A program made the position numbers and the translations under genes. The notes below the pieces were generated by a model that worked only from the letters and a program-made list of their open reading frames with translations, did no database searches and had not been told where the DNA came from. Positions 13,517-41,078 of a stretch of 64,000 bases of DNA are shown in pieces. Each line of letters begins with the position of its first letter. Positions within the stretch are counted from its first letter, which is position 1. Source of the DNA: Syntrophaceae bacterium UBA2210 (GTDB taxonomy: Bacteria > Desulfobacterota > Syntrophia > Syntrophales > UBA2210); NCBI GenBank assembly GCA_002327865.1, contig DCUQ01000029.1, positions 1 through 64,000 on the forward strand. Direction: 5' to 3'.

Positions 13517-13517
13517 A

Positions 13518-16585: not shown

Positions 16586-17917
16586 TCAAAGGACGGGCAA
16601 GTATTTGCACAGTTCATAATTACTCACGTGCATGCGGTATTGATCCCATTCGAGCTTCTTGTTTTCAATAAACTTGTTGAAGATATGATCTCCCAGGGTC
16701 TCTCTTACCAGTTCACTTCTTTCCGTCATGTGTATTGCCTGTCCGAGACTTCCCGGCAGGGATTCGATACCCCTTGCGTCCCGCTCTTTTTCCGTCATTT
16801 TGAAGATATCCTCTTCAACCGGATCGGGCAGAGCATAACCTTCCTCCATGCCTTTCATACCCGCCGCCAGCATGACTGCAAAAGCGAGATATGGGTTACA
16901 GGCTGGATCGGGACAGCGAAACTCCATCCGCGTAGCGTTTGCTTTCCCCGGTTTGTACATGGGAACACGAATGAGCGCCGAACGGTTTCTCCGCGCCCAT
17001 GAAATGTATACAGGAGCTTCGTAGCCAGGAACCAGTCTTTTGTAAGAATTGACCCACTGTGCTACTACAGACGACAGCTCTTTCGCATGCTTGAGCAAAC
17101 CCGCAATATAGCTCTTACCTTCCTTCGACAGGAAATATTCATCTTTCTCATCGAAAAAAGCATTGCTTCCATCTTTAAAGAGGGATTGGTGTACGTGCAT
17201 ACCGCTTCCGTTTTCCCCGAAGATGGGTTTCGGCATGAAAGTGGCATAAACACCGTGCTGCATGGCAACTTCTTTAACCGTCAGACGATATGTCATTGCC
17301 GCGTCGGCCATCGCAAGAGCTTCCGTGTAGCGCAAATCTATCTCATGCTGGCTCGGAGCAACCTCGTGGTGACTGTACTCCACTGGAATCCCCATAAATT
17401 CGAGTGTCCTGATCGTATCACGCCTGAGATCACTGGCAACGTCCAGGGGTGTCAAATCGAAATATCCTCCCCGATCCAGGATTTCGGTCCCTCCGGAATC
17501 TTTGAAATAAAAGAATTCAAGCTCCGGGCCTACATTCATGATATAACCCAGGTCAGCCGCCTTCTTCAGATTTCTCTTGAGTGCCCAGCGGGGATCTCCT
17601 TCGTACGGAGTCCCGTCCGGTTTTACGATATCGCAAAACATACGGGCGACGTTTTCATTACCACTTGCCCGCCAGGGCAGTATGGTAAAGGTATTCGGAT
17701 CAGGCTTCGCCACCATGTCGCTTTCTTCGATCCTCGCAAACCCTTCTATGGAAGAACCGTCGAACCCCATACCCTCTTCGAAGGCCAGCTCCAATTCCCT
17801 GGGAGATATGGAGAAACTCTTAAGAAAACCAAGTACATCCGTGAACCACAGGCGGATAAACTCTATGTTCTTATCTCTTACCTCTTTTAAAATGTACTCG
17901 CTGTTTTTAGTTGACAT
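16586..17917 (-). CDS. glnA: Glutamine synthetase type I (alpha subgroup)
   Basis: The enzyme condenses glutamate and ammonia to glutamine with ATP. The 443-residue length and features such as GFDGSSIEGFARIEESDM and GSGMHVHQS mark GSI. The region that holds the adenylylated Tyr of GSI-beta (NLYDLP) reads DIFKMTEKE here, with Phe instead. So this is the alpha subgroup and adenylylation is unlikely. ATG 17917 has GGGAG upstream and lies about 43 bases past a perfect sigma-54 promoter. The longer open frame to 17992 would begin upstream of that promoter and is rejected. The sigma-54 activator gene ends 201 bases upstream; glutamate synthase genes follow downstream. Confidence 0.97.
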   Translation of the reverse strand: MSTKNSEYILKEVRDKNIEFIRLWFTDVLGFLKSFSISPRELELAFEEGMGFDGSSIEGFARIEESDMVAKPDPNTFTILPWRASGNENVARMFCDIVKPDGTPYEGDPRWALKRNLKKAADLGYIMNVGPELEFFYFKDSGGTEILDRGGYFDLTPLDVASDLRRDTIRTLEFMGIPVEYSHHEVAPSQHEIDLRYTEALAMADAAMTYRLTVKEVAMQHGVYATFMPKPIFGENGSGMHVHQSLFKDGSNAFFDEKDEYFLSKEGKSYIAGLLKHAKELSSVVAQWVNSYKRLVPGYEAPVYISWARRNRSALIRVPMYKPGKANATRMEFRCPDPACNPYLAFAVMLAAGMKGMEEGYALPDPVEEDIFKMTEKERDARGIESLPGSLGQAIHMTERSELVRETLGDHIFNKFIENKKLEWDQYRMHVSNYELCKYLPVL

Positions 17918-17970
17918 TGTATTTTCTCCCATCTCCCGTTTTTTAAACGCAATCAGGCAACTTATATCAG

Positions 17971-17986
17971 GCAACTCCCGTGCCAA
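17971..17986 (-). promoter_or_regulatory. Sigma-54 promoter of glnA
   Basis: The minus strand reads TTGGCACGGGAGTTGC: TGGCAC, five bases, TTGC, with the invariant GG and GC ten bases apart. This is an exact match to the -24/-12 consensus for RNA polymerase with sigma-54. Initiation would fall near 17960, giving a leader of about 43 bases before the glnA ATG. Sigma-54 promoters need an AAA+ activator; one is encoded immediately upstream. Confidence 0.88.
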
Positions 17987-18080
17987 ACCCATTAACTCAC
18001 GAGAACATAATCTATTATAAGGACTTAGTTGACTTTACACCGATACCACAAGAAAAAAACGGCAGAAACGGCATAAAATT

Positions 18081-18096
18081 CCTACCATTATGTGGG
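18081..18096. promoter_or_regulatory. Candidate activator site upstream of the glnA sigma-54 promoter
   Basis: The sequence is CCTAC, six bases, GTGGG: an imperfect inverted repeat centred about 105 bp upstream of the -24 element, the usual place for a sigma-54 activator site. The purF sigma-54 promoter has the same motif (CCTAC-N6-GTAGG) at 31528-31543. The match of sequence and position at two independent promoters is the evidence; binding is inferred. Confidence 0.5.
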
Positions 18097-18117
18097 ATCA
18101 CACTTATATAGTTACCT

Positions 18118-19680
18118 TTATGTCCGAAATCGCTTAAAATCAATATTGTATTTCTGAACCCGCAATCCAATGATTCTTTCCGTGGTACCGAGAATTATCG
18201 CCGCCTGCGCCATGTTTCCCTGGGAGGTTTTGAGCGCATCTATGATCAGATCGCGCTCATACCTGTCCAATTCCCCCTGCAGCGTCCCATATTGAATCGT
18301 ACCCGAATATGAGGGGGTCTGTAACGTGAGAGGGAGGTGATATCCGTATATTACACCCTGATTGCTGAGAAGCACCGCCCTTTCAATGCAGTTTTCCAAT
18401 TCCCTTACATTACCCGGCCAGTGATAACTCATAAGCATATCTATGGCATGGGTACAGATTCTCTGAATCATCTTATTGTTTGCCAGGGCATATCTCTCCA
18501 CGAAGAAATCACTTAGAAGCATGATGTCCGACTTCCGTTCCCGGAGCGGGGGCACATAAATGGGAAACACGTTAAGCCGGTAATATAGATCTTCTCTGAA
18601 TTTTCCCTGGGTCATCAACTCCTCAAGGTTCCTGTTAGTGGCGGCAATTACTCTAACATCGATTTTCATCGTCTGCGTTCCGCCTACCCGTTCAAATTCG
18701 CGTTCCTGTAAGACTCTCAACAGGCGAATCTGTACCATGGGGGGAAGATCGCCCACCTCGTCGAGAAATATAGTCCCTCCGTTAGATAACTCGAAACGAC
18801 CCTTTCTCATGGAAGTAGCTCCCGTAAATGCGCCTTTTTCGTGACCGAACAGTTCGCTTTCGAGCACTGTTTCGGGAAGAGCGGCACAATTCACTTTAAC
18901 AAGCGGTTTACTTGCCCGCTGACTGTTAAAATGAATAGCATTCGCTATAAGCTCTTTACCTGTCCCGCTCTCACCACGGATCAATACATTGGCTGTACTG
19001 TTGGACACTTGGGCAATAAGTTGATACACTTCCCGCATCCCTTTGGACTTGCCTATTATATTCGCCGGCTGGAATTTCTCTTTTAATTCAGTCTGTAAAC
19101 GCAGATTTTCCTGTATCAGGAGTTCGCGTTCTTCCTGGGTCTGTTGGCGAAGCCGAACCGCCTGGGCTACCATGGACGCGATAATAGAAAGGAGGCGTAC
19201 ATCTTCCTTCAACGATACGGTCTCATCAAAAAGTCTGTCGGCACTTAGCGCGCCGATGATTTCCCTCCCGAGCTTTATGGGAACACACAGGTAAGAAATA
19301 TCCGTTTTGTGAAGATCCTTTCGTGATCCTGTTCTGTCCAGGAAAAGGGGTTCGTCCGAGATATGGGGAACAATGGCGGGTTTTCCCGTTTTAACGACTT
19401 TGCCGGTGACTCCTTCACCTATCTGGTATCGTCCTTTTTTTCTCTGTGACTCGGACAAACCATGCGCGACTTCGATATACATTTCCCCGCTCTTTCGATT
19501 GAGGAGTGTCAATGTCCCGCGCGTCATGCCCATTTTCTCCGCCAGTGCATTTAATACGGGGCCTACCACTTCTCGAATATTCAGGCTTCGACCCAGAGCC
19601 TGACTTACTTCGTAAAGCAAAGAAAGTTCACGCATTTCCCTGCTTTTAAGGGTTGCTTCCTGCTGTTCCCTTTTCTCCAT
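18118..19680 (-). CDS. Sigma-54-dependent transcriptional activator, GAF - AAA+ - Fis HTH (NifA-like)
   Basis: The 520-residue protein has an N-terminal GAF sensor domain (about 15-185), a short coiled linker and a sigma-54 AAA+ domain. It ends in a Fis-type helix-turn-helix (about 480-515). The AAA+ domain shows Walker A GESGTGKE, the sigma-54 contact loop GAFTGA, Walker B GGTIFLDEVGD and arginine-finger region FREDLYYRL. There is no receiver domain, so the signal probably enters through GAF, as 2-oxoglutarate does in Azotobacter NifA. The GAF domain is closely similar to that of the protein encoded next upstream, suggesting a shared signal. The ATG has AGGTGA upstream. It lies directly upstream of glnA and its sigma-54 promoter, so nitrogen control is the natural inference. 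Confidence 0.93.
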   Translation of the reverse strand: MEKREQQEATLKSREMRELSLLYEVSQALGRSLNIREVVGPVLNALAEKMGMTRGTLTLLNRKSGEMYIEVAHGLSESQRKKGRYQIGEGVTGKVVKTGKPAIVPHISDEPLFLDRTGSRKDLHKTDISYLCVPIKLGREIIGALSADRLFDETVSLKEDVRLLSIIASMVAQAVRLRQQTQEERELLIQENLRLQTELKEKFQPANIIGKSKGMREVYQLIAQVSNSTANVLIRGESGTGKELIANAIHFNSQRASKPLVKVNCAALPETVLESELFGHEKGAFTGATSMRKGRFELSNGGTIFLDEVGDLPPMVQIRLLRVLQEREFERVGGTQTMKIDVRVIAATNRNLEELMTQGKFREDLYYRLNVFPIYVPPLRERKSDIMLLSDFFVERYALANNKMIQRICTHAIDMLMSYHWPGNVRELENCIERAVLLSNQGVIYGYHLPLTLQTPSYSGTIQYGTLQGELDRYERDLIIDALKTSQGNMAQAAIILGTTERIIGLRVQKYNIDFKRFRT

Positions 19681-19733
19681 TTCTTATCACCTTTTATTGC
19701 TGTTCTCCCTGCCATTTAGCAGCTTTTTATCCG

Positions 19734-19851
19734 ATTGAATCTCCCCGCAACAAGTTGCGGGGAATCTCCGACTGTTAAGGAATTTTTCATTTTTTATTCG
19801 CTCGCTGACCCCGCCGCAAGCAGCGGGGAATGCGCTCGCTGTTCAGTTCAA
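19734..19851. repeat. Dispersed 118-bp double-hairpin repeat, copy 2
   Basis: This copy matches that at 131-248 with two differences. It lies 54 bases upstream of the sigma-54 activator gene, so any transcript entering from the upstream gene would carry both hairpins in its leader. It is an intergenic insertion with no obvious target duplication. Confidence 0.85.
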
Positions 19852-20230
19852 AAGGCTGCTTCAACTCAGCAGTAATCATCCTTTAATGCTATCTTATATC
19901 CAATTTCTGCCCGTTACTTTGATGTAGAAAGACAATAACACATAATTGTCGTTTTTTTAACATCGATCATGGCAATATTTAAGGGTTGGGGTAAAAAACT
20001 CGCAATCCGGGATATGACAGGCAGGTCAGTAATATATTCTGAAAGGGCGGGTAACACACATAAAAGTAAACAGAGCGATACCCGTACTGACTTTCATCGA
20101 TCATTTTATGCCTGATCTCTGGGCGGAGTATTAATTCCCGGAGCCGCCACCCCCCTCAGCAGCCGAATACTGCGTTTATGGCATTTCTTGACTTTCCCGA
20201 TCGGGTCTTTTTTTATATGAAAACAGGTAT
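19852..20230. other. Intergenic stretch, no gene recognised
   Basis: About 380 bases between the repeat and the GAF/PPDK_N gene. There is a 10-bp palindrome CCCGATCGGG near 20193-20202 followed on plus by a T-run, which could end plus-strand transcripts, but no plus gene is present. A weak CGGGTA/TACCCG pair lies further left. No open frame, sigma-54 element or tRNA was seen. Confidence 0.5.
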
Positions 20231-23200
20231 TCAGTGATAACAAATCACTTTCCTGTGAACAACATCCGCCAGTATTTTCAGGTCTTTTTTGCCGACATCA
20301 AATATCTTCACAACATCCTGGTATTTAACAGAATGAGGTGCTAATTTCTCCAGTTTATTGGGAAATCTTTTCAGCCATTGAAGGCTAAAGATAACATTTT
20401 TCTGACCCGGGAAAATAGCTATATAAAAAATACCTGTCTCGACAAGATCCTGAAAAAAATGGGTTCCATATGACAGTTCCGGCATAAGATTGCCGTCTGA
20501 ATACGCGATTTCACCCAGTACCGAGATATTGTTTATCTCGGAAAATCCTACGGGAACTCCCAGCGAAGGTGTCGTTGAACCCCACCTCCCAGGGCCGAGT
20601 AACATAACATGGGTCTCGTCCCTGTTCTCAATCTGCCGGTTTAATCTACCCACGAGCCTGGCAACCTCATATTTCTTCTGCAGTGGTAATGCCGTGTAGT
20701 GTGCCGGATCGATATAGATAATCCTGTCCACGGATTCTTTAATGCTCCCACCGAAGAAATTCCCTTCAAATTGAAACAGTATGTTACTTTCATCGACATT
20801 CTTCGGGAACTCAACCCGTTTCCCTTCTCCCTGTGTTTGAAGAGGTCTGCACTGTACCAGATTGATCCTGAAATCATCTTTATCTGTAAAATTTACTGTA
20901 AATTCTATATCAACGGGATATTCATAAATAGTTTCAAGCTTCCTGAGCATTTTCTGCATAATATCTGTAAATTGCGTTCCCGAAAGAAAATCATCCAGGG
21001 TAATTATCCATGCCTCCTGGCCTTTTATTCCGAGTTTGCGTATCTTCTGGTCGGTCTCGTGATCTCTGGTGGCAATTCTATCCATCCTGATGCCAAGCTC
21101 TTCACTCGGCAGATTGAGAACCGATTGTGTTTTCAGGCTGTTCTGTTCAAGATCAAGAAGGTCGACATCGCGTTGAGAAAATCTCCTCGTATCCTCCATT
21201 CCGGCATGAGGCTTCAGTAGGGGAAGATTCAATGCAACGATTCTGGGATAATCTCCCTCAACCCTGTTCACCGCCCTCGTTCCAAGCCCGAATACCATAC
21301 GCAGCATGCCCGCCTTGGGATCGATGCCCTTATTCCATGCAAAGGTATTGTAGGAGATACCGACCCCCGCGAGATCGGGGAAATAATAGTGCCCATGGTG
21401 TGATCCCGACACCCGCTGCACGAGAAGAGCCATTTGTTCGTCGGCCCTTTCAAGCCCTCTTTGCATACGATAGGTAAGGGCATCCTCATTCATGGCGCTG
21501 GCATATATTGTGCGGATAGCGTTCTCGAACTGGGCATATCGCTCATCGGGGGTTCCCTGATTTACTAAAAATATGCTTTCATATTTACCGGCAAAAGCAT
21601 TCCCGAAGGAATCTTCCAATAGACTGCTTGATCGCACGATAATGGGCGATTGTCCGAAATATTCAAGCATTCTGTAGAACTGTTCCCTGACTTCATCAGG
21701 AAAGAGACCGTGCTTCATTCTGTTCCGGAGAATGCGGGCCGCCTTGAAATAACCCTCTTTCGTTTTCTGTTCCATTCGCAAACGCCACCAGTTATTCTGA
21801 ACCAGGTAGGTATAGAACACGTCGGAACCTATATAAAAAGAATCATGTTCCTCTAGAATCTGATTCCAGTCAAAGCTCTTGTCAAGTTCCAGAATTTTCC
21901 TGGCAAGCAGCATACCTCCTGCCTTACCCCCAAGAAACCCCGTACCTATCAATCTCTCCCTTACCCTCAAGAGATCTTCGAGAGAAAATTTGTCCTTAAC
22001 GAGAATAGACATCCTGGGTTCTCTGCTGATCATGATACTGCATATACGCTCAATCATGTCTTCTTCTTTTTCCGACTCCCAGGGCTTGTCGAGAAGCCCC
22101 TCGGCCTCGATGAACAATCTGTCCCAATAGTCTAGACTTCGTTCACTGCTTTCTTTCCGCTTCTTCGACATGTCGGAAAATAATTTCGCCGCATCTACGC
22201 TGTCTATAATGGGAACGAATTCATTACCCTCTTTTTTGTGCGGAAGGAACATGGTGGGAGAATAGCGCTTCCATACCTTAAGGGGATGAATATATATATC
22301 CCCCTTATCGTCATGAACGTCGAGTAGAACCTGCGTTGTTTCACGAATCCGGGCGATGGTCTGGAAGGAATGACTCCCACGTATGACCGCGAAATATGCG
22401 ATGGTATCCAGTTCAAACAGGTAGGGACACGTTATGATAAAGAAATTTCCTACCATTAAATCGGTAGACCATTCCGAAAGAAGATTGGAGAGACAATCGA
22501 AAACATAGAATACCCCTTCCCCTTCTTTTGTAATTATATCATATACTTCCGTTGAGAAGGCCTCGAAGCCGCTTGCGGGATTAAGGTGATAGGTAACTAC
22601 CTCTTTATCGGGTTTTATAAGTGACTCATGATCGGCGAATCTCATATAAACAAGTTTCTTTTTGTCTTTGAGAGCTCTTTCGACGAAGAGATCGACGACC
22701 TGCCTGTAATCATCGAGATTATCTACCTGCCAGACCACGTTATCGCCGATTCTAAGTCCACTTATAATATTATCGAGGGATTCGTGACCGGTACTCATGG
22801 GCTGGGAGCTTCTGTAAGGTTTCCTCTGGAGTCGAGCCCCCTCTTGGAGAATAATTTGATGCCCCTCTTCCTCCTGCTGCAGGATACGGACTGCTTGAGC
22901 GATCATTGAGGCTATAATCGTGAGAAGACGGAGATCTTCCTCCAATGAAACCGATTCATCGAAAACCTTGTCTGCGCTGATGGTGCCTATTATTTCGTTC
23001 TGGTTTCTTATAGGAACACAGATGAACGAGATCTTATCCTTAGGAAGATTTTTACGTGCTTCCGTCCTGTCCAGGAATAAGGGTTCGTCGGAAATTCTGG
23101 GCACGATCATGGGTCTCCCCGTTTCAACCACTCTGCCGACGACACCTTCACCTATCTTGTACCTTCCCCTCTCTTTTTGTGCCTTTGAAAGGCCATGGGA

Positions 23201-23398
23201 GGCCTCGATAGCGATCTCTCCCGTCTGCCTGTTAAGCAGGGTAATGAAGCCTCTTGACATACCCATAAATTTTTCAAGGCCACGAAGTATAGGTGCCCCT
23301 ATTTTCTTAACATCGGTATCCTGCTCTAAAATCTGGCTTATTTCCCACAAAAGCGATATCTCTCTTGCTCCTTTTGTGGCAGTTGATTTCTGACTCAC
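20231..23398 (-). CDS. GAF - KaiC-like - PPDK N-terminal (PEP/pyruvate-binding) domain protein
   Basis: The 1055-residue protein starts with a GAF domain (about 10-185) very similar to that of the downstream sigma-54 activator; both contain ISDEPLFLDRT and IIASM(I/V)AQAVR. Residues about 205-400 resemble a KaiC/RecA-like fold (GHESLDNIISGLRIGD), but the P-loop is not recognisable. Residues about 460-900 form a PPDK_N ATP-grasp domain (IIVRSSSLLEDSFGNAFAGKYES, then NLVQCRPLQ). The phosphohistidine domain and PEP barrel of PEP synthase or pyruvate phosphate dikinase are absent, so it is not a complete dikinase. The GTG start has GGGAGG upstream. It follows carB by 68 bases. Its role is unknown; a ligand-regulated phosphotransfer partner is possible. 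Confidence 0.8.
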   Translation of the reverse strand: MSQKSTATKGAREISLLWEISQILEQDTDVKKIGAPILRGLEKFMGMSRGFITLLNRQTGEIAIEASHGLSKAQKERGRYKIGEGVVGRVVETGRPMIVPRISDEPLFLDRTEARKNLPKDKISFICVPIRNQNEIIGTISADKVFDESVSLEEDLRLLTIIASMIAQAVRILQQEEEGHQIILQEGARLQRKPYRSSQPMSTGHESLDNIISGLRIGDNVVWQVDNLDDYRQVVDLFVERALKDKKKLVYMRFADHESLIKPDKEVVTYHLNPASGFEAFSTEVYDIITKEGEGVFYVFDCLSNLLSEWSTDLMVGNFFIITCPYLFELDTIAYFAVIRGSHSFQTIARIRETTQVLLDVHDDKGDIYIHPLKVWKRYSPTMFLPHKKEGNEFVPIIDSVDAAKLFSDMSKKRKESSERSLDYWDRLFIEAEGLLDKPWESEKEEDMIERICSIMISREPRMSILVKDKFSLEDLLRVRERLIGTGFLGGKAGGMLLARKILELDKSFDWNQILEEHDSFYIGSDVFYTYLVQNNWWRLRMEQKTKEGYFKAARILRNRMKHGLFPDEVREQFYRMLEYFGQSPIIVRSSSLLEDSFGNAFAGKYESIFLVNQGTPDERYAQFENAIRTIYASAMNEDALTYRMQRGLERADEQMALLVQRVSGSHHGHYYFPDLAGVGISYNTFAWNKGIDPKAGMLRMVFGLGTRAVNRVEGDYPRIVALNLPLLKPHAGMEDTRRFSQRDVDLLDLEQNSLKTQSVLNLPSEELGIRMDRIATRDHETDQKIRKLGIKGQEAWIITLDDFLSGTQFTDIMQKMLRKLETIYEYPVDIEFTVNFTDKDDFRINLVQCRPLQTQGEGKRVEFPKNVDESNILFQFEGNFFGGSIKESVDRIIYIDPAHYTALPLQKKYEVARLVGRLNRQIENRDETHVMLLGPGRWGSTTPSLGVPVGFSEINNISVLGEIAYSDGNLMPELSYGTHFFQDLVETGIFYIAIFPGQKNVIFSLQWLKRFPNKLEKLAPHSVKYQDVVKIFDVGKKDLKILADVVHRKVICYH

Positions 23399-23466
23399 TA
23401 CTAACCGCCTCCCTTTTAAAAATATAACCTAATTAATCCGGTCGCGATGTATATGGCAGTTCGGTA

Positions 23467-26400
23467 TCATCTCTTTTCGTTATATCTATCCTGCAGAGAC
23501 CGAACCGTCAAGCCGTGACGCCTGATGGCATTGATGGCGTTAACCATTGCTCTGGCACCGGAAATCGTCGTTACAACAGGTATGTTATGCGAAACCGCCA
23601 CACTCCGGATCCTTACTTCATCCTGTCTCGGTTTCGGACCGCTCGGTGTATTGACGAGAAGTTCAACATCCCTGTTCTTCATGTAATCCATGAGATTGGG
23701 CCGCCCTTCGTCAAGCCGGGGTAACTGTCTTACACTCACACCGTTATTCATGAGCGTTTTTGCCGTGCCTGGTGTCGATAATATTTCGAATCCCAGATCG
23801 GCAAACTGTTTTCCAATATCTATGATTGCCTTTTTATCATAATCTTTAACACTTATAAATACCTTACCGGAGTCCGGAACCATTTGTCCCGCCGCGATCT
23901 GACTTTTCGCGAAGGCTATCCCCAGATCGGAATCGACTCCCATTACCTCGCCCGTGGACTTCATCTCCGGGCCTAAAAGAATATCGGCACCATAAAATCT
24001 GTTAAAGGGGAAAACGGATTCCTTCACCGAAAAATAACCGGGTTTGGGGTCTTTTTCTACACCCTGCTCTTTCAGGGTCTGACCAATCATTACCCTCGTA
24101 GCGATTTTTGCCAGCGGCATCCCGGTGGCCTTGGAAACAAAAGGAACCGTCCTGGATGCCCTCGGATTTACTTCCAGGATATAGAGTTCATTTTCTTTGA
24201 CGACGAACTGGATATTGAGCAATCCCTTAACACCCAGTTCCAGAGCCAGCTTTTTAGTTTTTTCCTGTATCTTAGAAAGCATGTCCTCACTCAGCGAGTA
24301 AGTGGGAAGCACCATCGCGCTGTCCCCCGAATGGATACCGGCATGTTCGATATGCTCCATAATCCCGCCGATTATAACATCTTTGCCGTCCGAAACAGCA
24401 TCGACATCAACTTCGATGGAATCTTCAAGAAACTTGTCCACCAGTACGGGATGATTTGGTGAAGCATCAAACGCTTCTTTAACGAATCCCCTGAGGTCCT
24501 CCCTGTTCCATACCACTACCATGGCTCGTCCGCCTAGAACATATGACGGCCGGATAAGAACGGGATAACCGATTCTATCGGCTATCTCTTCCGCTTCTTC
24601 GAAGGAAAGCGCCGTACCATTGTCGGGCTGTTTTATGTCGAGCATGTCGGCCATATCTTTAAAAAGCTGCCGGTCCTCGGCCCGGTCGATAGCTTCCGGC
24701 GGAGTACCAAGAATCTTTACACCGTTTCGCGCGAGGGGCAGGGCCAGATTAAGCGGCGTCTGACCCCCGAGTTGCACGATAACACCTTCAGGCTTTTCGA
24801 CTTTGACAATATTCAAGACATCTTCGAGGGTCAACGGTTCAAAATAGAGACTGTCGGATATATCATAATCCGTCGATACCGTCTCCGGATTGGAATTTAC
24901 CATTATCGTCTTATATCCGTGCTCTCGAAGAACCATTGAAGCGTGTACGCAGCAGTAATCAAATTCTATGCCCTGGCCTATTCTGTTCGGACCTCCTCCG
25001 ATTATCATAATCTTGCCTGTTTCCACGTCGCGACTTTCATCCTTCTGTCCCCCATACGTGGAGTAATAATATGGCGTATACGCTTCGAATTCAGCCGCGC
25101 AGGTGTCGACCAGGTTGTAAACAGGTGTGATTCCGGCCTGTTCACGAATGGCGCGGACCTCGTGCTCGGTCATCTTGACAATTTCACCGATCTGCAAGTC
25201 GGAAAAACCGAACCGTTTCGACTGCCGCAGGATACTCTCGGAAATATTCCCGATCCGTCCACAGTTCCTCAACTCCCGCTCCATAACTACGATCTCCCGG
25301 ATGTTGCTCAAAAACCAGGGATCAATACGAGTGAGTTCGGAGATATGATCCATCGACATTCCCATTTGAATTGCCTGTTTTATATAAAACAGGCGTTCCG
25401 GTGTCGGACGAACAAGCATCGCGTTAACACGCTCCGGTTCCATGCTCCCATCATATTCGTAATCGAACCCGTTAAGACCTGTTTCCAGCCCTCGTAAACC
25501 TTTCTGGAATGCCTCCTTGAATGTACGGCCGATCGCCATCGTCTCACCCACCGATTTCATGGAGATAGTGAGAGTATTTTCCACACCCGGAAATTTTTCA
25601 AAGGCGAACCGGGGAATCTTGACCACACAATAATCTATGGCAGGTTCAAAGGACGCGGGTGTTCGTCTTGTAATATCATTTGGAATTTCATCAAGACTGT
25701 ATCCTATGGCGAGTTTGGCGGCAATTTTTGCTATCGGGAACCCTGTCGCCTTTGACGCAAGAGCAGAGGACCGGGAAACACGAGGATTCATCTCTATAAC
25801 AACAACGCGGCCATTCTCAGGGTTCACCGCAAACTGAATATTCGATCCTCCCGTTGCAACACCGATCTTTCGAATCACCGCGATCGACGCGTTTCGCATA
25901 TACTGATATTCCCTGTCGGTCAGCGTCTGTGCCGGCGCGACAGTAATCGAATCACCCGTGTGCACTCCCATGGCGTCGAAATTCTCAATGGAGCAGATAA
26001 TAACGGCGTTGTCCTGCTGATCGCGCATCACCTCCATCTCGTATTCCTTCCACCCGAGAACGGATTCCTCGATCAGTATCTCCCCTATCATACTCTGCTC
26101 TATACCATTAGAGGCAAGCCCCTCAAATTCCTCGGCATTATAGACCAGGGCACCACCGGTACCCCCGAGAGTGAAACTGGGACGTATAACAAGAGGGAAA
26201 CCCAGTTCCCCGGCGATCCTCCGCGCTTCTTCCATGGAATTGGCGATAGCGCTTCTCGGCACTTCGAGACCTATCTCCTTCATCGCCGCTTTGAACTCAT
26301 CCCTGTCCTCCGCACGTTTTATCGCGGCAAGGTCGGCACCGATCATTTCAACATTATATTTCTCGAATACGCCTCTTTCGGCCGCCTCAACGGCTGTATT

Positions 26401-26688
26401 CAAGGCCGTCTGGCCTCCTATCGTGGCGAGTACCGCCTGCGGACGTTCTTTTTCTACTATCTTCTCAACCGTATCCGCAGTTATCGGCTCTATATATGTC
26501 CTGTCGGCCATCTCGGGGTCGGTCATTATAGTAGCCGGGTTTGAATTCAGCAAAACTATCTCGTAGCCCTCTTCCACCAGGGCCTTACAAGCCTGTGTAC
26601 CTGAATAGTCGAACTCGCAAGCCTGCCCTATAACTATAGGACCCGAGCCGATAATCAGTATCTTTTTCAAATCAGTACGTTTAGGCAT
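23467..26688 (-). CDS. carB: Carbamoyl-phosphate synthase large subunit
   Basis: At 1073 residues this is full length: two ATP-grasp carbamoyl-phosphate synthase halves, each with its [15 protein letters not shown] or [15 protein letters not shown] block, an oligomerisation domain between, and a C-terminal MGS-like allosteric domain (from about 935). It makes carbamoyl phosphate from bicarbonate, ammonia from CarA and two ATP, for pyrimidines and arginine. It retains [16 protein letters not shown], the normal bacterial sequence, unlike the second CarB in this window. It follows carA by 100 bases in the purF-aspS-carA-carB group. Confidence 0.97.
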
Positions 26689-26788
26689 ATATTTTTATCT
26701 TATTATTCCAATCCGATTGTGTCCGGTGGTTTTAAACGCATATCATGGGCAAAACGATGAAAATACTTTCGTTCATTTCTTGCCTCTG

Positions 26789-27871
26789 CTACGACTTCTT
26801 TATCATTTCGGTAAAACGCTCGAAGAGATATCGCGCGTCGTGCGGCCCCGGGCCCGCTTCCGGGTGAAACTGTACCGAACATACGGGAAGTTTCCGGTGC
26901 CGGAAACCTTCCAGAGTGTTGTCGTTCAGATTTACATGTGTAACCTCGATATCCCTCCTGTCAAGGGAATCCATGTCTACACAAAACCCGTGATTTTGGA
27001 CGGTGATATCGATCTTGCCTGTTTCGAGATCTTTCACCGGGTGATTCGATCCGTGATGACCGAATTTCAGCTTGAACGTCTTGCCGCCCAGTGCAAGACC
27101 CAGAATTTGCTGACCCAGGCAGATTCCGAATATCGGAATATCTCCCCTCCCTACAAGTTTTCTGGTGTTTTCGATCGCATATGTCACTGCGTCGGGATCA
27201 CCGGGTCCGTTCGAAAGCAGAATCCCCTCCGGCTCGTAAGCCATAATATCATCGATCGAAGTCTCTGCCGGCAGGACCGTAACGTTGCAGCACGCGTTAT
27301 AAAGCTGATTCAGTATACTCTGTTTAACGCCGAAATCCATTACAACAACCCTCGGACCATCCTGTTCGCTTAGGGAATAGGGTTCATCACATGTCACATC
27401 CGTCACAAGATCCCGTCCTTTCAATCCGGGCGACGCGACGGCTTTGGCAATCAGCGAATCCGTATCGTTATCCACAGTCGATATGACAGCCCTCATGGCG
27501 CCCCTGGTCCTGATATGCATGGTCAACGCCCGTGTATCGATGCCCTGAATTCCTATAACCCCGTTTTCCCTGAGATAAGACCCAAGATCTTTTTGTGATC
27601 GCCAGTTACTCGTTATCCTGCTCAGTTCACCGATAACAAACCCTTCGAGCCATAGAGATCTCGATTCCGAATCCTCTTCATTTATACCGTAATTACCGAT
27701 AAGAGGATAGGTCATTGCCACTATCTGTCCCTTGTAAGAGGGATCGGTAAGTACCTCCTGATAACCGGTCATCCCGGTATTGAATACTACTTCTCCACAA
27801 CGCTCGCCAGGCGCACCACATGACACACCTTCAAATATCTTCCCATCTTCCAGCGCAAGAAATGCCTTCAT
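26789..27871 (-). CDS. carA: Carbamoyl-phosphate synthase small (glutaminase) subunit
   Basis: The 360-residue protein hydrolyses glutamine and channels ammonia to CarB. The N-terminal CPSase small-chain domain begins with ALEDGKIFEG; the class I amidotransferase half has the nucleophile motif IFGICLGQQ, LKFGHHGSNHPV and HPEAGPGPHD. The length is normal. aspS ends 26 bases upstream and carB follows 100 bases on, so one transcript is likely. The ribosome site in front of the ATG is weak. Confidence 0.97.
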   Translation of the reverse strand: MKAFLALEDGKIFEGVSCGAPGERCGEVVFNTGMTGYQEVLTDPSYKGQIVAMTYPLIGNYGINEEDSESRSLWLEGFVIGELSRITSNWRSQKDLGSYLRENGVIGIQGIDTRALTMHIRTRGAMRAVISTVDNDTDSLIAKAVASPGLKGRDLVTDVTCDEPYSLSEQDGPRVVVMDFGVKQSILNQLYNACCNVTVLPAETSIDDIMAYEPEGILLSNGPGDPDAVTYAIENTRKLVGRGDIPIFGICLGQQILGLALGGKTFKLKFGHHGSNHPVKDLETGKIDITVQNHGFCVDMDSLDRRDIEVTHVNLNDNTLEGFRHRKLPVCSVQFHPEAGPGPHDARYLFERFTEMIKKS

Positions 27872-27897
27872 TGTTTCAAATCGCTCTCTGCTTCGTT

Positions 27898-29742
27898 TTA
27901 CTCTGCAATGACCTTTTTACCGTTAACCCATTTCCCCTTGTCGCGATCAAGCAGACCAAGTTCCAGGAGTTGTTTCTCCGTAACGGGAGAGGGTGCCTCG
28001 CTCAGCGGGCAGTAAGCACTACGATTCTTGGGGAAAGCCATAACTTCACGGATGGATTCCTCCTTCAGTATCATGGCTATAACCCTGTCCATTCCCAGGG
28101 CGATACCTCCGTGAGGAGGAGTTCCGTATTCAAGAGCCCTGAGGAAGAATCCGAATTTTTCGGCTACTTCATCATCCGACAGATTCAGAATCTTGAAAAT
28201 CTTTTTTTGAAGACTTCTCTCGTGAATTCTGATGCTGCCACCGCCCAGTTCTTCACCGTTGACAACCAGATCATAGGCACGGGATTTGAGCGTAAGAAGA
28301 TCTTCCCGGCTTTCCGGGTCAAAATCTATTCGGTCTGGTGCGGTAAAGGGATGATGATTCGATGTGATACGCCTGCCTGTCAGAGAAAAGAGCGGAAATT
28401 CTACAATCCAGACGGGACAATATACGTCTTCATTTATAAGGTCAAGTCTTTTCGCGAGGTGCAGCCGCAACTGCCCCAGAACCGATACGACCGTATTCCA
28501 GGAAATGTCGGCAATCAGGATGATGACGTCACCGTCCTCAGCCCTGAATCGCTCAATTATCCCCTTCTTTTCTTCTTCGCTGAAAAACTGGACTATATTG
28601 GATTCAATCGTTCCTTCGGCCACTCTCATCCAGGTCATTCCTTTTGCTCCGAAAGAGGGAACTATTTTCTTCGCGTATTCGTTCTGCAGCACATTCTTGC
28701 TCAATTTGCTCGACTGACCCCTGATATTTATCCCCTTTATCACCCCTCCTTTGTCCAGAATCGTTTTAAAAATTCCGTACGATGTTTCTCCGAATATATC
28801 CGTGGCATCCGTAAAACGCAGGTCAAAGCGGGTATCGGGGCGATCGCTCCCCATTGTATCCATCGCCTCATGCCAGGTCATTTTCGGGAAAGGAGATTCG
28901 AGAGAGACGCCTCCCAGCGCAAACATGCGGGTGACAAGCTTTTCAACCAATCCATAGATAAATTCTTCATCGATAAAGGATGCTTCCATGTCGAGTTGTG
29001 TAAATTCGGGCTGCCTGTTAGGACGGAGATCCTCATCACGAAAACAACGCGCTATCTGGAAATAGCGTTCGAGCCCGCTCACCATGAGAAGTTGCTTGAA
29101 AAGTTGGGGCGACTGCGGAAGCGCGTAGAATCGTTTCCGGTGTATGCGGCTGGGCACCAGATAGTCTCTCGCTCCCTCGGGGGTGCTTTTCGTCAGCATT
29201 GGTGTCTCTATCTCTATAAAGTTTTCTTCATCCAGATAGTCGCGAACACATTTAATGATGCGATGCCGCATAATTAAATTGTTCTGCATACTGGGACGTC
29301 TGAGATCCAGATATCGGTACCTCAGTCTCCTGTCTTCCGCCACCGAGCTTTTTTCGTTAATGTTCGCACCTGCAACCATTGCCTTTTCAGATATGGAGAA
29401 AGGGAGCGTTCTTGATCTGTTCAGGATCTCCAGCCCGGAAGCTATTACCTCAACCATACCCGTCTTAATGTTGGAGTTTTCCGTACCTTGTTTCCTCTTA
29501 ACAACAGTGCCTTTAATAAAAATACAGTATTCGTTTCTAAGTGTTGCCGCCTGCTGGCATATATCGGCCGGGGTATTGTCCGGGTTAAACACAACCTGTA
29601 TGATACCGCTTCTGTCACGCAGGTGGATAAAAAGCACCTCTCCGTGATCACGCAGCGCATCCACCCATCCGGCAAGTTCGACCTCCTGGCCTGCAGTGAA
29701 AATATCGTGTTTCCCACAATCTGTACGTTTAGCAAATCTCAT
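27898..29742 (-). CDS. aspS: Aspartyl-tRNA synthetase
   Basis: This class II synthetase of bacterial type (614 residues) has an N-terminal OB-fold anticodon-binding domain (ELAGWVDALRDHGEVLFIHL) and catalytic motif 2 (FRDEDLRPNRQPEFTQLD). A GAD insertion domain follows, then motif 3 (GIALGMDRVIAMIL). The start is the second of two adjacent ATGs, six bases from AAGG. The much longer frame overlaps purF and has no family match upstream. It follows purF by 25 bases. tRNA(Asn) misacylation by a non-discriminating form cannot be judged here. Confidence 0.96.
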   Translation of the reverse strand: MRFAKRTDCGKHDIFTAGQEVELAGWVDALRDHGEVLFIHLRDRSGIIQVVFNPDNTPADICQQAATLRNEYCIFIKGTVVKRKQGTENSNIKTGMVEVIASGLEILNRSRTLPFSISEKAMVAGANINEKSSVAEDRRLRYRYLDLRRPSMQNNLIMRHRIIKCVRDYLDEENFIEIETPMLTKSTPEGARDYLVPSRIHRKRFYALPQSPQLFKQLLMVSGLERYFQIARCFRDEDLRPNRQPEFTQLDMEASFIDEEFIYGLVEKLVTRMFALGGVSLESPFPKMTWHEAMDTMGSDRPDTRFDLRFTDATDIFGETSYGIFKTILDKGGVIKGINIRGQSSKLSKNVLQNEYAKKIVPSFGAKGMTWMRVAEGTIESNIVQFFSEEEKKGIIERFRAEDGDVIILIADISWNTVVSVLGQLRLHLAKRLDLINEDVYCPVWIVEFPLFSLTGRRITSNHHPFTAPDRIDFDPESREDLLTLKSRAYDLVVNGEELGGGSIRIHERSLQKKIFKILNLSDDEVAEKFGFFLRALEYGTPPHGGIALGMDRVIAMILKEESIREVMAFPKNRSAYCPLSEAPSPVTEKQLLELGLLDRDKGKWVNGKKVIAE

Positions 29743-29767
29743 CATATACCTTCTTCTGTTTCTTGTA

Positions 29768-31201
29768 TTATTCACCGCGACTTTGTGCAAATATCTCCTT
29801 GCTGAAGTTTTCGGGAACCTTTGTCGGATAATTCCCGGTAAAGCATGCCGTGCATTGCAGATTACCTTTGGGAACGACACTCAGCATCCCCGCAACCGAC
29901 AGATATGCCAGTGAATCGGCTTCTATATGCCGGCATGTATCTTCCACACGGTGGGACGACGCAATCAGCTCACCCCGGCTCGATATATCAATTCCGTAGA
30001 AACAGGGGGATACGACCGGGGGGGAGCTTACCCGTACATGGACTTCGGAAGCGCCGGCACTGCGTATGAGATGTATCAACTGTTTCAGTGTGGTTCCCCG
30101 AACAATCGAATCCTCAACAACGACAACACGTTTTCCTCTCAACACCCCAGTAACCGGATTGAACTTTATACGAACATCGAGGTCTCTTGCATTCTGGTGA
30201 GGTGCAATAAAAGTCCTGCCTACGTAATGATTCCTTATAAGGCCTATTTCAAAACGTATGCCCGATGCCTGAGAATATCCGATAGCGGCTGTATTCGCGG
30301 AATCGGGAATCGCTATAACGATATCGGCCTCGCAGGGAGCCTCCTCTGCAAGTTTTTTGCCCAGAAGTCTCCTTACCTTGTCGACTTTCTCGTCGAATAT
30401 AATGCTGTCCGGTCGTGAAAAATATATGTATTCAAAAACGCAGAAAGCCTTCGGATCCCTTGGAGGCATAAACCTCGAAGAGATACCTCTTTCGTCGATC
30501 ACGACAATTTCCCCAGGTTTTACACTTCGGATATAATCCGCAGCTATAATATCGCAGGCACATGATTCGGAGGCAACGACAAAGGCATCTCCCGCTCTTC
30601 CTATACACAGAGGCCTGAAACCTTGCGGGTCACGAGCCGCGATCAGCTTTGAAGGCGTAAGGAAGACAAAACAGTATGCGCCCGACAGTTGTATCAGAGA
30701 ATCTTCTATTTTTTCGTCTATCGAGGCTTTCTTAGACCGCGCGATAAGATGGAGTACTATTTCGCTGTCCGATGTAGTTTGAAATATGGCACCTTTATTC
30801 TCCAGCATATTGCGGAGTTCGGAAGCATTTACCAGGTTTCCGTTATGAGCGGCGGCAATCTGACTGCCCCGGGACCTTATAAGTATAGGTTGCGAATTCA
30901 TCAGATCCGACGACCCGGTCGTTGAATATCTGTTGTGACCTATCGCGGCTTTTCCCGACAGCCTCGGCATTATGTACGGATCCTGGAAAACCGACCAGAC
31001 GAGACCCATCCCCCTGTGAAGAGATATCTCCTTTCCATCGGTTGCAGCTATTCCCGAACTTTCCTGTCCCCTGTGCTGAAGAGCGTACAGCCCGAGATAG
31101 GTTTTCTCTGCGGCTTCCTGATCACCGAAAATGCCGAAGATGCCGCAAAATTCCCGAGGGCAATCATCCGATTCTCTTATAATCGCTTCATTGCACGACA
31201 C
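29768..31201 (-). CDS. purF: Amidophosphoribosyltransferase
   Basis: PurF makes phosphoribosylamine from PRPP and glutamine, the first step of purine synthesis. The class II nucleophile is Cys19 (FCGIFGIFGD) after an 18-residue propeptide, as in Bacillus-type PurF. GHNRYSTTGSS and AAHNGNL are the glutamine-site motifs and VVVVEDSIVRGTT binds PRPP. Cysteines in CVFEYIYF and CTACF fit the 4Fe-4S ligands of this type. The start is GTG with AGAGGTGG upstream. It is the first gene of a minus-strand series (aspS, carA, carB and onward) and has a perfect sigma-54 promoter about 235-250 bases upstream. Confidence 0.97.
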   Translation of the reverse strand: MSCNEAIIRESDDCPREFCGIFGIFGDQEAAEKTYLGLYALQHRGQESSGIAATDGKEISLHRGMGLVWSVFQDPYIMPRLSGKAAIGHNRYSTTGSSDLMNSQPILIRSRGSQIAAAHNGNLVNASELRNMLENKGAIFQTTSDSEIVLHLIARSKKASIDEKIEDSLIQLSGAYCFVFLTPSKLIAARDPQGFRPLCIGRAGDAFVVASESCACDIIAADYIRSVKPGEIVVIDERGISSRFMPPRDPKAFCVFEYIYFSRPDSIIFDEKVDKVRRLLGKKLAEEAPCEADIVIAIPDSANTAAIGYSQASGIRFEIGLIRNHYVGRTFIAPHQNARDLDVRIKFNPVTGVLRGKRVVVVEDSIVRGTTLKQLIHLIRSAGASEVHVRVSSPPVVSPCFYGIDISSRGELIASSHRVEDTCRHIEADSLAYLSVAGMLSVVPKGNLQCTACFTGNYPTKVPENFSKEIFAQSRGE

Positions 31202-31435
31202 GTGGCCACCTCTTTCATTTAACTCTGTATGAGCACCGTTTAAGGATCGACTGCTCTTTTCGCCCGACTATAGGACATATCCGTGATAAAATCACTCTAA
31301 TACATGAATATTCAGTAAAAATCCTCAAAGGTGAACATATTAGATTCATAATCCCTTGCCACGTTCGTATCGACTGTTTCACAGGAGAACAGACACTTCG
31401 GCAACAATCGGGCGCTCGAATCCTCCCACTCCCCT

Positions 31436-31452
31436 AGCAATTACGGTGCCAA
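31436..31452 (-). promoter_or_regulatory. Sigma-54 promoter of the purF-aspS-carAB unit
   Basis: The minus strand reads TTGGCACCGTAATTGCT: TGGCAC, five bases, TTGC, with GG and GC ten bases apart, an exact -24/-12 element. Initiation near 31425 would give a leader of about 220 bases to the purF GTG. Purine and pyrimidine genes are not usually sigma-54 dependent; here the control would tie glutamine-consuming pathways to nitrogen status. Confidence 0.82.
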
Positions 31453-31527
31453 CCGGGCCAACAACGCTTTTAATCCATACCAGCCGCCGAAAAGAAGCGC
31501 CGGGGAAACATAAAACGCCTCGATTAA

Positions 31528-31543
31528 CCTACATTTCCGTAGG
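31528..31543. promoter_or_regulatory. Candidate activator site upstream of the purF sigma-54 promoter
   Basis: This is a perfect inverted repeat, CCTAC-N6-GTAGG, centred about 85 bp upstream of the purF -24 element. It matches the site at 18081-18096 before glnA. Its right half also contains TTTCCGTAGGA, which recurs at 31617-31627 on the nrpR side 83 bp away, about eight helical turns. Binding by the activator encoded at 18118-19680 is inferred. Confidence 0.5.
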
Positions 31544-31581
31544 ACCAGCTTCTTAAAACTACAGATATGTATAAAAAATTA

Positions 31582-31610
31582 TTGACAAGTTATTATTCAG
31601 GTGTTACTCA
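31582..31610 (+). promoter_or_regulatory. Candidate sigma-70 promoter of nrpR-gdhA
   Basis: A perfect -35 TTGACA (31582-31587), a 17-base spacer and a moderate -10 TACTCA (31605-31610). Initiation near 31617 would give a leader of about 30 bases to the ATG at 31648 and places the palindrome at 31616-31630 over the start point. Confidence 0.5.
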
Positions 31611-31615
31611 TGGCA

Positions 31616-31630
31616 CTTTCCGTAGGAAAG
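31616..31630. promoter_or_regulatory. Palindrome over the nrpR start site, possible operator
   Basis: A perfect 15-bp palindrome, CTTTCC-GTA-GGAAAG, immediately downstream of the nrpR -10 element. Archaeal NrpR binds GGAA-N6-TTCC repeats; this one has the half-sites inverted, so it resembles but does not equal that operator. Autorepression by NrpR is a reasonable guess. Confidence 0.4.
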
Positions 31631-31647
31631 AGGTTGCCGATTGCCAT

Positions 31648-32703
31648 ATGAATGCTTTATTCCATAAAGATGATGATATAGAAAAAAAAACCATCCTGAT
31701 CTTAAAGATTCTGAATAACGAACAGAAACCGGTGGGTTCTCGTCTAATTTCAAGGTTTTTAAAGGACTACGGCATTTTATTGAGCGAAAGATCCGTCAGA
31801 TATCATCTGAAGTTGATGGATGAACGAGGGCTAACAAAGCTTGTAGACAGGCGTGACGGAAGAATCATAACGGAAAAGGGTGTCGAGGAAATAGGCAGCG
31901 CCAGGGTTCATGATAAGGTCGGTCTGGCAATCTCCAGAATAGAGAACCTTGCGTTCAGAACAACATTCGATCCGAAAAAGAAAAAGGGGCTTGTTCCTGT
32001 CAACATCTCTTTCATACCAAAAAAATATTTTATCGATGCTCTGCATGCTATGGTCCCTGCCTTTGATGCGGGACTTTGCTCCAGCAACCTTGTATCGTTT
32101 GCCGGAGAGGGCGGAAAACTCGGCGAAATTCTGGTTCCGAAAGGCAAGATAGGATTTGCCACTGTCTGCAGTGTAGCAATTAACGGTGTTCTATTAAAAA
32201 ACGGGATCCCCATGGATTCCAAATTCGGCGGGATTCTGCAAATACAGAAAGAAACCCCTCTGCGTTTCGTAGAGCTCATTTACTATTCGGGATCTTCTCT
32301 CGACCCCTCTGAGGCTTTTATCCTGGGGAAAATGACGTCCGTACTTCGGACCGCCAAAGAGGGCGAGGGAAAAATACTTGCCAACTTCAGAGAAATACCG
32401 GCAATCAGCCGCGGTATTGTTGAAAAGCTTGTATCAAGTCTTCAGGAAACCGGGATAAAAGGTGTCCTTTCGATCGGGAAAATGAGCGAGCCAATCTGCC
32501 AGATACCCGTAGACGTCAACAAAATAGGAATTATTCTTGTCGGAGGTTTGAACCCCGTAGCATGTGTTCAGGAGATGGATATAGAGATAGAAAATCACAC
32601 CATGTCGACTGTCATGGACTACAGGGACCTCGTGAATTTTTATGAATTGCTTAAAAAGAGCAACAGGGAATTGTGCAACACAGAGGTTATATCTGGAATA
32701 TAA
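31648..32703 (+). CDS. nrpR: NrpR-type nitrogen regulator (winged helix + NrpR/DUF128 domain)
   Basis: Residues 1-75 form a winged helix (ILKILNNEQKPVGSRLISR, then SERSVRYHL). The remaining 275 residues form one NrpR regulatory domain (VPVNISFIPKK, SFAGEGGKLGEILVPKGK, GLNPVACVQEMDI). In methanogens NrpR represses nitrogen genes and is released by 2-oxoglutarate. This form has a single regulatory domain and would act as an oligomer. The ATG at 31648 is preferred because the likely promoter lies inside the longer frame that begins at 31567, though the ribosome site is poor (AGAGG about 14 bases off). gdhA follows 22 bases downstream with a strong ribosome site, so NrpR probably controls its own operon. 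Confidence 0.85.
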   Translation: MNALFHKDDDIEKKTILILKILNNEQKPVGSRLISRFLKDYGILLSERSVRYHLKLMDERGLTKLVDRRDGRIITEKGVEEIGSARVHDKVGLAISRIENLAFRTTFDPKKKKGLVPVNISFIPKKYFIDALHAMVPAFDAGLCSSNLVSFAGEGGKLGEILVPKGKIGFATVCSVAINGVLLKNGIPMDSKFGGILQIQKETPLRFVELIYYSGSSLDPSEAFILGKMTSVLRTAKEGEGKILANFREIPAISRGIVEKLVSSLQETGIKGVLSIGKMSEPICQIPVDVNKIGIILVGGLNPVACVQEMDIEIENHTMSTVMDYRDLVNFYELLKKSNRELCNTEVISGI

Positions 32704-32725
32704 AACAAAAAAAGGAGTAGAGCGT

Positions 32726-40947: not shown

Positions 40948-41078
40948 TAAAACGATATCTGCCGGTCTTAAATACCTGGCGGCTATGATGTAAGATGAAT
41001 AACGGGGACATCTCCACACCAATGTCCTTATCCTTTAATGATATCAACCATCCCGGGAAAAGCGGAAAGGACCGAACC

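Follow-up and report, generated by a model that had tools for sequence, protein, structure and literature searches.

A predicted sigma-54 nitrogen regulon that takes in glnA and the purF operon in a Syntrophaceae genome and its relatives

In the first 64,000 nucleotides of contig DCUQ01000029.1 of Syntrophaceae bacterium UBA2210 (assembly GCA_002327865.1; this whole stretch is hereafter the window), a gene for a sigma-54 activator with a GAF domain (18118–19680, minus strand) lies between glnA and the operon purF-aspS-carA-carB, and each of these two units carries upstream, on the minus strand, a sigma-54-like promoter element and an inverted repeat of the same form. The question that this arrangement raises is whether a single activator couples the synthesis of glutamine with that of purines, pyrimidines and Asp-tRNA, as was proposed in an earlier note made from the letters of the window alone. 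Conservation and co-occurrence in related genomes support the coupling and indicate a broader regulon than noted, and we consider it highly probable that two promoters in the window belong to a sigma-54 nitrogen regulon that extends over much of the class and part of the phylum and is driven by a NifA-like activator. If true, sigma-54 control would reach a core nucleotide operon, such that the production of glutamine and its large uses rise together. The targets of most sigma-54 activators in Syntrophales-like lineages have so far been without assignment, and for nitrogen control in these and related lineages the analysis offers a testable enhancer code together with a list of targets.

Promoter elements, upstream repeats and their conservation

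Using the sigma-54 consensus TGGCAC-N5-TTGCW, with its two parts 24 and 12 bp before the start, we located both -24/-12 elements where the earlier note had placed them, that of glnA at 17971–17986 (TTGGCACGGGAGTTGC, also written TTGGCACGGGAGTTGCC at 17970–17986) and that of the purF operon at 31436–31452 (TTGGCACCGTAATTGCT), both on the minus strand. The note had called both exact, which is so for the purF element (no mismatch) and not for that of glnA, which departs in its last base (one mismatch). The two inverted repeats CCTAC-N6-GTRGG were likewise confirmed on the minus strand as putative upstream activator sequences (UAS), one for glnA at 18081–18096 (CCCACATAATGGTAGG) and one for purF at 31528–31543 (UAS 1, CCTACGGAAATGTAGG); the distance of 85–105 bp given for them holds when counted from the centre of the repeat and fails when counted from its edge, which lies 95 bp above the TGG at glnA and 76 bp above it at purF. 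Additional to what the note contained are a second purF site on the same strand, UAS 2 at 31558–31573 (TATACATATCTGTAGT), situated 30 bp above UAS 1, and a gene for an NrpR homologue (31648–32703).

At up to two mismatches the sigma-54 pattern had 22 matches in the window, where 20.3 are expected; matches at such a chance frequency prove little by themselves, and conservation is therefore the real test. The repeat CCTAC-N6-GTRGG at up to one mismatch gave 10 strand-matches at six places, compared with 3.8 matches expected, and was exact at three places, the third of which (60890) is far from either promoter. A UAS matrix trained on 41 sites taken from relatives, with the window excluded, had the consensus CCTACAATATTGTAGG (outer CCTAC...GTAGG) and ranked UAS 1 of purF first in the window (19.0), the glnA site second (16.1) and UAS 2 of purF third (13.3), whilst none of 15 random sequences of the window's length contained a matrix site as good as that of glnA.

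A search of 155 genomes of the class for the activator (E ≤ 1e-180) returned 25 matches, 12 at 71–89 % and 13 at 54–61 %, and we compared the regions around all of the former and four of the latter (L165–L168). In every one of the 12 close orthologues glnA follows the activator on the same strand, at a distance of 184–292 bp in 11 of them; in G115 the two genes are 3.5 kb apart, separated by an ammonium transporter gene and an amidotransferase gene. All 12 have, upstream of glnA, a UAS (8–10 of 10 letters) and a sigma-54-like site, the -24/-12 element having one departure in G105 and G107, and a thirteenth case with the same layout is G110, in which the activator is cut by the contig end. Furthermore, the glnA orthologues of G002 and G004 (81–82 %) have a similar repeat 84–86 bp above TGGTAY-N5-TTGC. 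Each of the 12 class genomes has a purF orthologue (68–88 %), and in 10 of them the pair of elements stands before purF or the first gene of its operon: in nine upstream of either purF itself or a short operon with dapF as its first gene, and in the tenth (G105) as a near-perfect repeat with TGGCGC-N5-TTGC. The purF repeat retains 7 of 10 letters in G117 and G118. In G146 the pair precedes dapF at a contig end and purF is on a different contig, so that this genome is excluded from the 10. The fullest operon (L225) comprises dapF, an aminotransferase gene, purF, aspS, carA, guaA and carB, whereas purF is first in the operon in the window, with nrpR beyond, and in G113, G115 and G116; gene names in these operons come from profile matches in L225, L230, L237, L327 and L328 and elsewhere from order and length. 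The earlier note had staked its proposal on the repeat being kept at orthologous glnA and purF, and it is kept at 13 of 13 glnA genes and at the purF operon of 10 of the 12 activator-bearing class genomes.

Extending the search over the phylum (395 genomes, E ≤ 1e-220) added 23 activator orthologues (66–73 %), and all 23 regions were compared. For 12 of them glnA is on the piece, and in nine of these 12 both the repeat and a sigma-54-like element are present, the latter mostly departing from the consensus at one or two positions; a repeat of at least 12 bits lies within 350 bp of the activator stop in 12 of the 23. The next co-directional large gene after the activator is an ammonium transporter in L304 and L318. 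On the pieces of the homologues at 54–61 % (L165–L168) there is no glnA, and L167 and L168 each have a site roughly 50 and 64 bp past the activator stop, scoring 13.0 and 15.9 respectively. We also tried activator homologues at 46–50 % that stand beside PPDK genes (L011, L014, L016, L039, L054 and L070), and rejected them: within 350 bp upstream the best matrix score was 7.9 and there was no good sigma-54 site, such that these probably represent another regulator. A separate observation concerns L169 (G004:C66), where purF-like pieces in different frames lie at about 315–1095, between the end of gdhA and glnA, as a broken gene or an assembly fault.

The placement of the repeats follows the turn of the helix. 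Gaps between repeat and promoter cluster at about 74–76, 84–88, 92–99 and 103–108 bp, with one gap of 71, and the best period is 10.45–10.7 bp; the clusters, near 75, 86, 97 and 107 bp, are thus one helical turn apart, the gap at purF of G113 being 88. Moreover, a second site (at least 5 bits) lies exactly 30 bp upstream of the primary one at 19 of 49 promoters, compared with an average of 0.35 per offset over 110 offsets, the primary site being defined as the best-scoring one, which may be the farther of the two. Such pairs occur at 6 of 25 glnA promoters and at 13 of 24 others, the purF promoter of the window included. In L153, L155, L157, L159, L304 and L318 the upper UAS overlaps codons around the activator stop, so that some bases of the coding sequence seem to double as enhancer. 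Pairs at promoters that follow the activator gene in this way are less independent; of the 13 pairs outside glnA, 11 lie at other promoters.

Regulon targets and the protein that reads the repeat

In order to identify targets genome-wide, we used a pattern of the repeat (one half strict), N80–108 and TGGYAY-N5-TTGC, with the reversed pattern as the control. This gave 22 matches in 14 genomes against one for the control, and 17 of the 22 were at glnA, the purF/dapF operon or an ammonium transporter; one of the remainder (G113:C132) precedes a different activator-type gene. The mirrored pattern gave 21 matches, again against one, of which 20 were at glnA, purF/dapF, an ammonium transporter or a type III glutamine synthetase. 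A stricter pattern, applied to the 155 class genomes, was found in 9 of the 12 activator genomes and in 7 of the 143 others, with three matches for the control; the seven are G110 (the cut activator), G116 (purF), G005 (purF operon), G006 (dapF), G029 (guaA), G007 (no Pfam match at the site) and G084. The predicted regulon is therefore wider than the earlier note had it, with an ammonium transporter, type III glutamine synthetase, guaA and dapF among its members, and this wider list points to a general nitrogen regulon and not only to a link from glutamine to nucleotides.

The protein encoded at 18118–19680 is a NifA-like one-component activator by its domains, with Pfam matches to GAF, Sigma54_activat (249 bits) and HTH_8 (28 bits, above its cut-off; helix-turn-helix), and its Walker motif GESGTGKE and its GAFTGA motif, the latter in the AAA+ domain, are those of a sigma-54 activator. 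It also scores above the cut-off of the NifA profile TIGR01817 (550.2 versus 528.85 bits). Pfam shows no Response_reg receiver domain in it, as an NtrC would have. The earlier note's statement that it is the only such activator in the window stands, as a tblastn search with its AAA+ domain returned no second one. Amongst its carriers, nifH scored above cut-off in only 1 of 12 (G118), and in 1 of all 16 genomes scored, these being drafts that may be incomplete; G148 reached 363.6 bits against a cut-off of 394.35. Neither promoter of the window has a NifA-type TGT-N10-ACA site or, at up to three mismatches, an NtrC-type TGCACC-N5-GGTGCA site. One TGT-N10-ACA match does lie at 19947–19962, in the gap above the activator gene; this pattern occurs 17 times in the window, with 8.7 expected. 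If the reading given here is true, a large set of proteins now labelled NifA would need a corrected annotation.

Three lines of evidence support this GAF activator as the reader of the repeat, namely its adjacency to glnA, the co-occurrence of the strict pattern with its gene (9/12 versus 7/143) and sites before its own gene. For the last of these, the window and 35 relatives were scored, and at 24 of these 36 loci a motif of at least 10 bits lies either in the 200 bp upstream of the activator start or just past it, compared with 5 % of random pieces taken from those loci; the sites on which the matrix was trained had not been chosen for that position. Binding by the activator, dependence on sigma-54 and the sign of the response are what we infer from this pattern of occurrence.

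Several observations weigh against so simple an assignment. The main one, which speaks against a one-to-one link, is the presence of a UAS in genomes where no activator was found: G002 and G004 (at glnA), G005 and G006 (purF/dapF), G116 (purF) and G029 (guaA), all six being drafts of unestablished completeness, with the activator search in G116 and G029 made by the HTH part only. A different activator might read the UAS in these six. Five of the 22 pattern matches (G105:C165, G108:C23, G113:C132, G115:C83 and G148:C47) and one of the 21 mirrored ones are at other or unidentified genes, at purF of G148 the repeat is weak and no promoter element is clear, and the pair is absent at three of the 12 distant glnA loci (L307, L315 and L321). 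Neither the window nor its nearest relatives (L153–L156) have a UAS before the activator gene, and at L158 the site in that position is shared with a divergently transcribed ammonium transporter gene, of which there are two copies, one of them represented in the training set. Finally, part of the list of distances came from the pattern limited to 80–108 bp and related genomes are non-independent samples; on account of that limit and this kinship, we place weight on the empty intervals between the clusters rather than on p-values.

The six genomes also provide some ground for supposing that the enhancer is real and mainly read by another sigma-54 activator, for instance of NtrC type, with the GAF protein an accessory or a mere neighbour. 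G004 in fact encodes a receiver-type activator that is 52–53 % alike in the central region; its HTH differs, however, and NtrC-type sites stand at neither promoter, whilst the constant neighbourhood of glnA in the close orthologues (12/12), the own-gene sites (24/36) and the distribution of the strict pattern (9/12 versus 7/143) all tie the repeat to the GAF protein. We therefore regard a different principal reader as unlikely. That we are dealing with frequent short motifs of no function finds some encouragement in the window itself, where the -24/-12 pattern at two mismatches is as common as expected and the repeat at one mismatch also recurs (10 matches versus 3.8); it is hardly credible in view of the conservation, the controls, the spacing and the tandem geometry across genomes, and the reversed controls, with 1, 1 and 3 matches, argue against the choice of sites having forced the results.

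A further candidate reader is NrpR, in which case the repeat would be its operator and the GAF activator would act elsewhere. Its gene lies 75–105 bp from the purF repeat, and the NrpR of methanogens represses glnA. Relatives of NrpR nevertheless share a different motif, ATCGGCAA-N4-TTGCCGAT, which is found, with 12 or more of its 16 letters, no farther than 100 bp from nrpR at 71 of 80 loci (the best 80 of 355 confirmed) compared with 1.8 % of random 120-bp pieces, and the CCTAC repeat, in the forms searched, is in none of 78 nrpR upstream pieces. Moreover, of the 14 class genomes in which glnA or purF carries the repeat (the 12 activator genomes, G110 and G116), only 2 have NrpR at E ≤ 1e-30 and 12 do not, and amongst 16 NrpR-bearing genomes (G001–G016) the strict pattern is confined to G005, G006 and G007. 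This makes NrpR very improbable as the reader, although not quite so implausible as chance.

Returning to the GAF activator as the reader, the scheme we propose is that its dimers would bind the palindrome CCTACAATATTGTAGG, often at two sites 30 bp apart, and from one or both UAS would contact the sigma-54 polymerase at -24/-12 by DNA looping, which would explain the whole-turn spacing of UAS and promoter. The GAF domain most likely reports nitrogen status. In response, the activator would raise glutamine supply, through glnA here and through ammonium transporters and type III glutamine synthetase in relatives, and also the glutamine users PurF and CarAB through purF-aspS-carA-carB, with dapF, an aminotransferase gene and guaA (GuaA) joining them in relatives; nucleotide synthesis that rises with glutamine supply may serve to sustain the flux under glutamine scarcity. 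In its full extent the reading is that a NifA-like activator, untied from nitrogen fixation, serves as a general nitrogen regulator over much of the phylum, with an enhancer code of its own (CCTAC...GTAGG sites, often paired 30 bp apart, whole turns from the promoter, the upper site by glnA overlapping the activator's last codons) and a regulon that includes purine, pyrimidine, diaminopimelate and Asp-tRNA synthesis, and that it meets an archaeal-type NrpR in one intergenic region of the window's lineage. We think this wider picture reasonably probable.

NrpR beside purF

The nrpR gene (31648–32703, plus strand), divergent from purF, encodes a homologue of the archaeal-type nitrogen repressor with the family's domains PF01995 (282 bits) and PF08461 and a winged helix (HTH_12); its open reading frame (ORF) spans 31567–32703, with 31648 the likelier start from the lengths of homologues. 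Just upstream, at 31622–31641 on the plus strand, lies a predicted operator, GTAGGAAAGAGGTTGCCGAT, which agrees with ATCGGCAA-N4-TTGCCGAT in 13 of 16 letters, and a possible -35 element of nrpR, TTGACA, can be read beside UAS 2 at 31582–31587 (plus strand) and is similarly placed in the closest NrpR relatives (L001, L002, L024 and L044). In those four no CCTAC repeat precedes nrpR, nor was a divergent purF found. The 80 loci derive from records of Deltaproteobacteria, Syntrophales-type bacteria, Chloroflexi, Dehalococcoidia and others, and GGCAA-N4-TTGCC was the commonest palindrome upstream of nrpR (38 of 78 pieces). A gdhA-like gene follows within 1.5 kb at 53 of the 80, at 60 % identity or more at 45, short contigs being scored as misses. 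In nine of nine other genomes of the phylum NrpR was found (E ≤ 1e-30), at 35–39 % identity. An NrpR half-site suspected in the glnA leader received no support from the operator scan.

By its predicted operator, a bacterial NrpR thus appears to share the purF intergenic region as a second nitrogen regulator, and with that operator it would add a second nitrogen input beside purF in the window's lineage. NrpR repression, known from archaea, is relieved by 2-oxoglutarate. The literature on NrpR and DUF128 that we searched (titles and abstract openings, with most subscription journals outside it) describes no bacterial NrpR regulon, and the adjacent gene with its clear predicted operator offers a bacterial test case for a repressor known from methanogens. 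Like the methanogen protein, this NrpR has the NrpR regulatory domains with a winged helix and is linked to nitrogen genes; it differs in being bacterial, in standing beside gdhA and in the conserved ATCGGCAA-N4-TTGCCGAT upstream.

Known systems and other genes of the window

We found no earlier description of this UAS enhancer code, and the activator and targets are unusual for a sigma-54 nitrogen regulon. Enteric NtrC acts at the sigma-54 promoter glnAp2 through paired enhancers about three helical turns apart, a geometry that the present glnA promoter and 30-bp pairs resemble, but here there is neither a receiver domain nor an NtrC-type site, and the targets include the purF operon. NifA is matched in profile score and in the order GAF, AAA+, HTH; in contrast to it, the activator stands beside glnA rather than nif genes, nifH scores above cut-off in 1 of its 12 carriers and TGT-N10-ACA is absent from the promoters. 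A further likeness is with DVU1949 of Desulfovibrio vulgaris, a one-component sigma-54 nitrogen activator of a related bacterial group, to which PMC4641369 ascribes nine operons of nitrogen metabolism and transport, the regulon being proposed from a site upstream of the operon that includes DVU1952 and, in four genomes, iorAB. Going by this published description, DVU1949 may prove a relative of our activator; the main text of that paper mentions neither purF nor carbamoyl or glutamine. Sigma-54 near purF has some precedent in an RpoN site by cvpA-purF-ubiX listed for E. coli by genomic SELEX (gSELEX; PMC8743547). The RpoN regulon of Geobacter sulfurreducens shares a sigma-54 glnA promoter, at glnB-glnA and supported by primer extension, while the main text of PMC2725144 mentions neither purF nor carA, purine or pyrimidine. 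Similarly, the main text of PMC12316311 contains no mention of purF, carA, aspS or glnA.

The minus-strand order in the window is purF, aspS, carA, carB, a gene for a GAF and PPDK_N protein, the activator, glnA, glutamate-synthase-like genes (11354–16101) and pyrG (9463–11073). Type I glutamine synthetase is encoded by glnA at 16586–17917 (TIGR00653, 537.6 bits, cut-off 429.15), whose start was placed at 17917 by ribosome-binding context, making the gene shorter than the longest ORF. The likely operon consists of purF (29768–31201; TIGR01134, 518 bits, cut-off 350), aspS (27898–29880; TIGR00459, 708.7 bits), carA (26789–27871; TIGR01368, 507 bits) and carB (23467–26688; PRK05294, 1691.5 bits), and its last gene is that of the GAF and PPDK_N protein (20231–23398, assigned by profile matches). 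On the plus strand, nrpR is followed by gdhA for an NADP-type glutamate dehydrogenase (32723–34075; NF006929, 748 bits).

The GAF domain of the PPDK_N protein resembles that of the activator and matches the activator genes of relatives at 47–62 %, PPDK-like genes also lie near activator-like genes at several Syntrophales loci, and its GAF-phosphotransferase layout is reminiscent of PtsP; the protein could act together with the activator as a partner. A terminator-like stem at 18089–18058 could mark the end of the activator transcript, above the glnA promoter. Over the whole window, scans gave 21 terminators against 15.7 expected and 24 sigma-70 promoters against 21.4 expected, and Rfam had no matches. 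Beyond gdhA lie two further co-directional genes: one at 40995–42449 that resembles purF (34 % identity with the operon's purF; its 319 bits fall short of the 350-bit cut-off), and a second carB at 37744–40947 (51 % identical). Finally, the glutamate synthase 3' of glnA appears to be split into separate genes (11354–16101) for a GltD-like protein, a flavin mononucleotide (FMN)-domain protein and a third ORF, and this block stays beside glnA in activator-bearing relatives.

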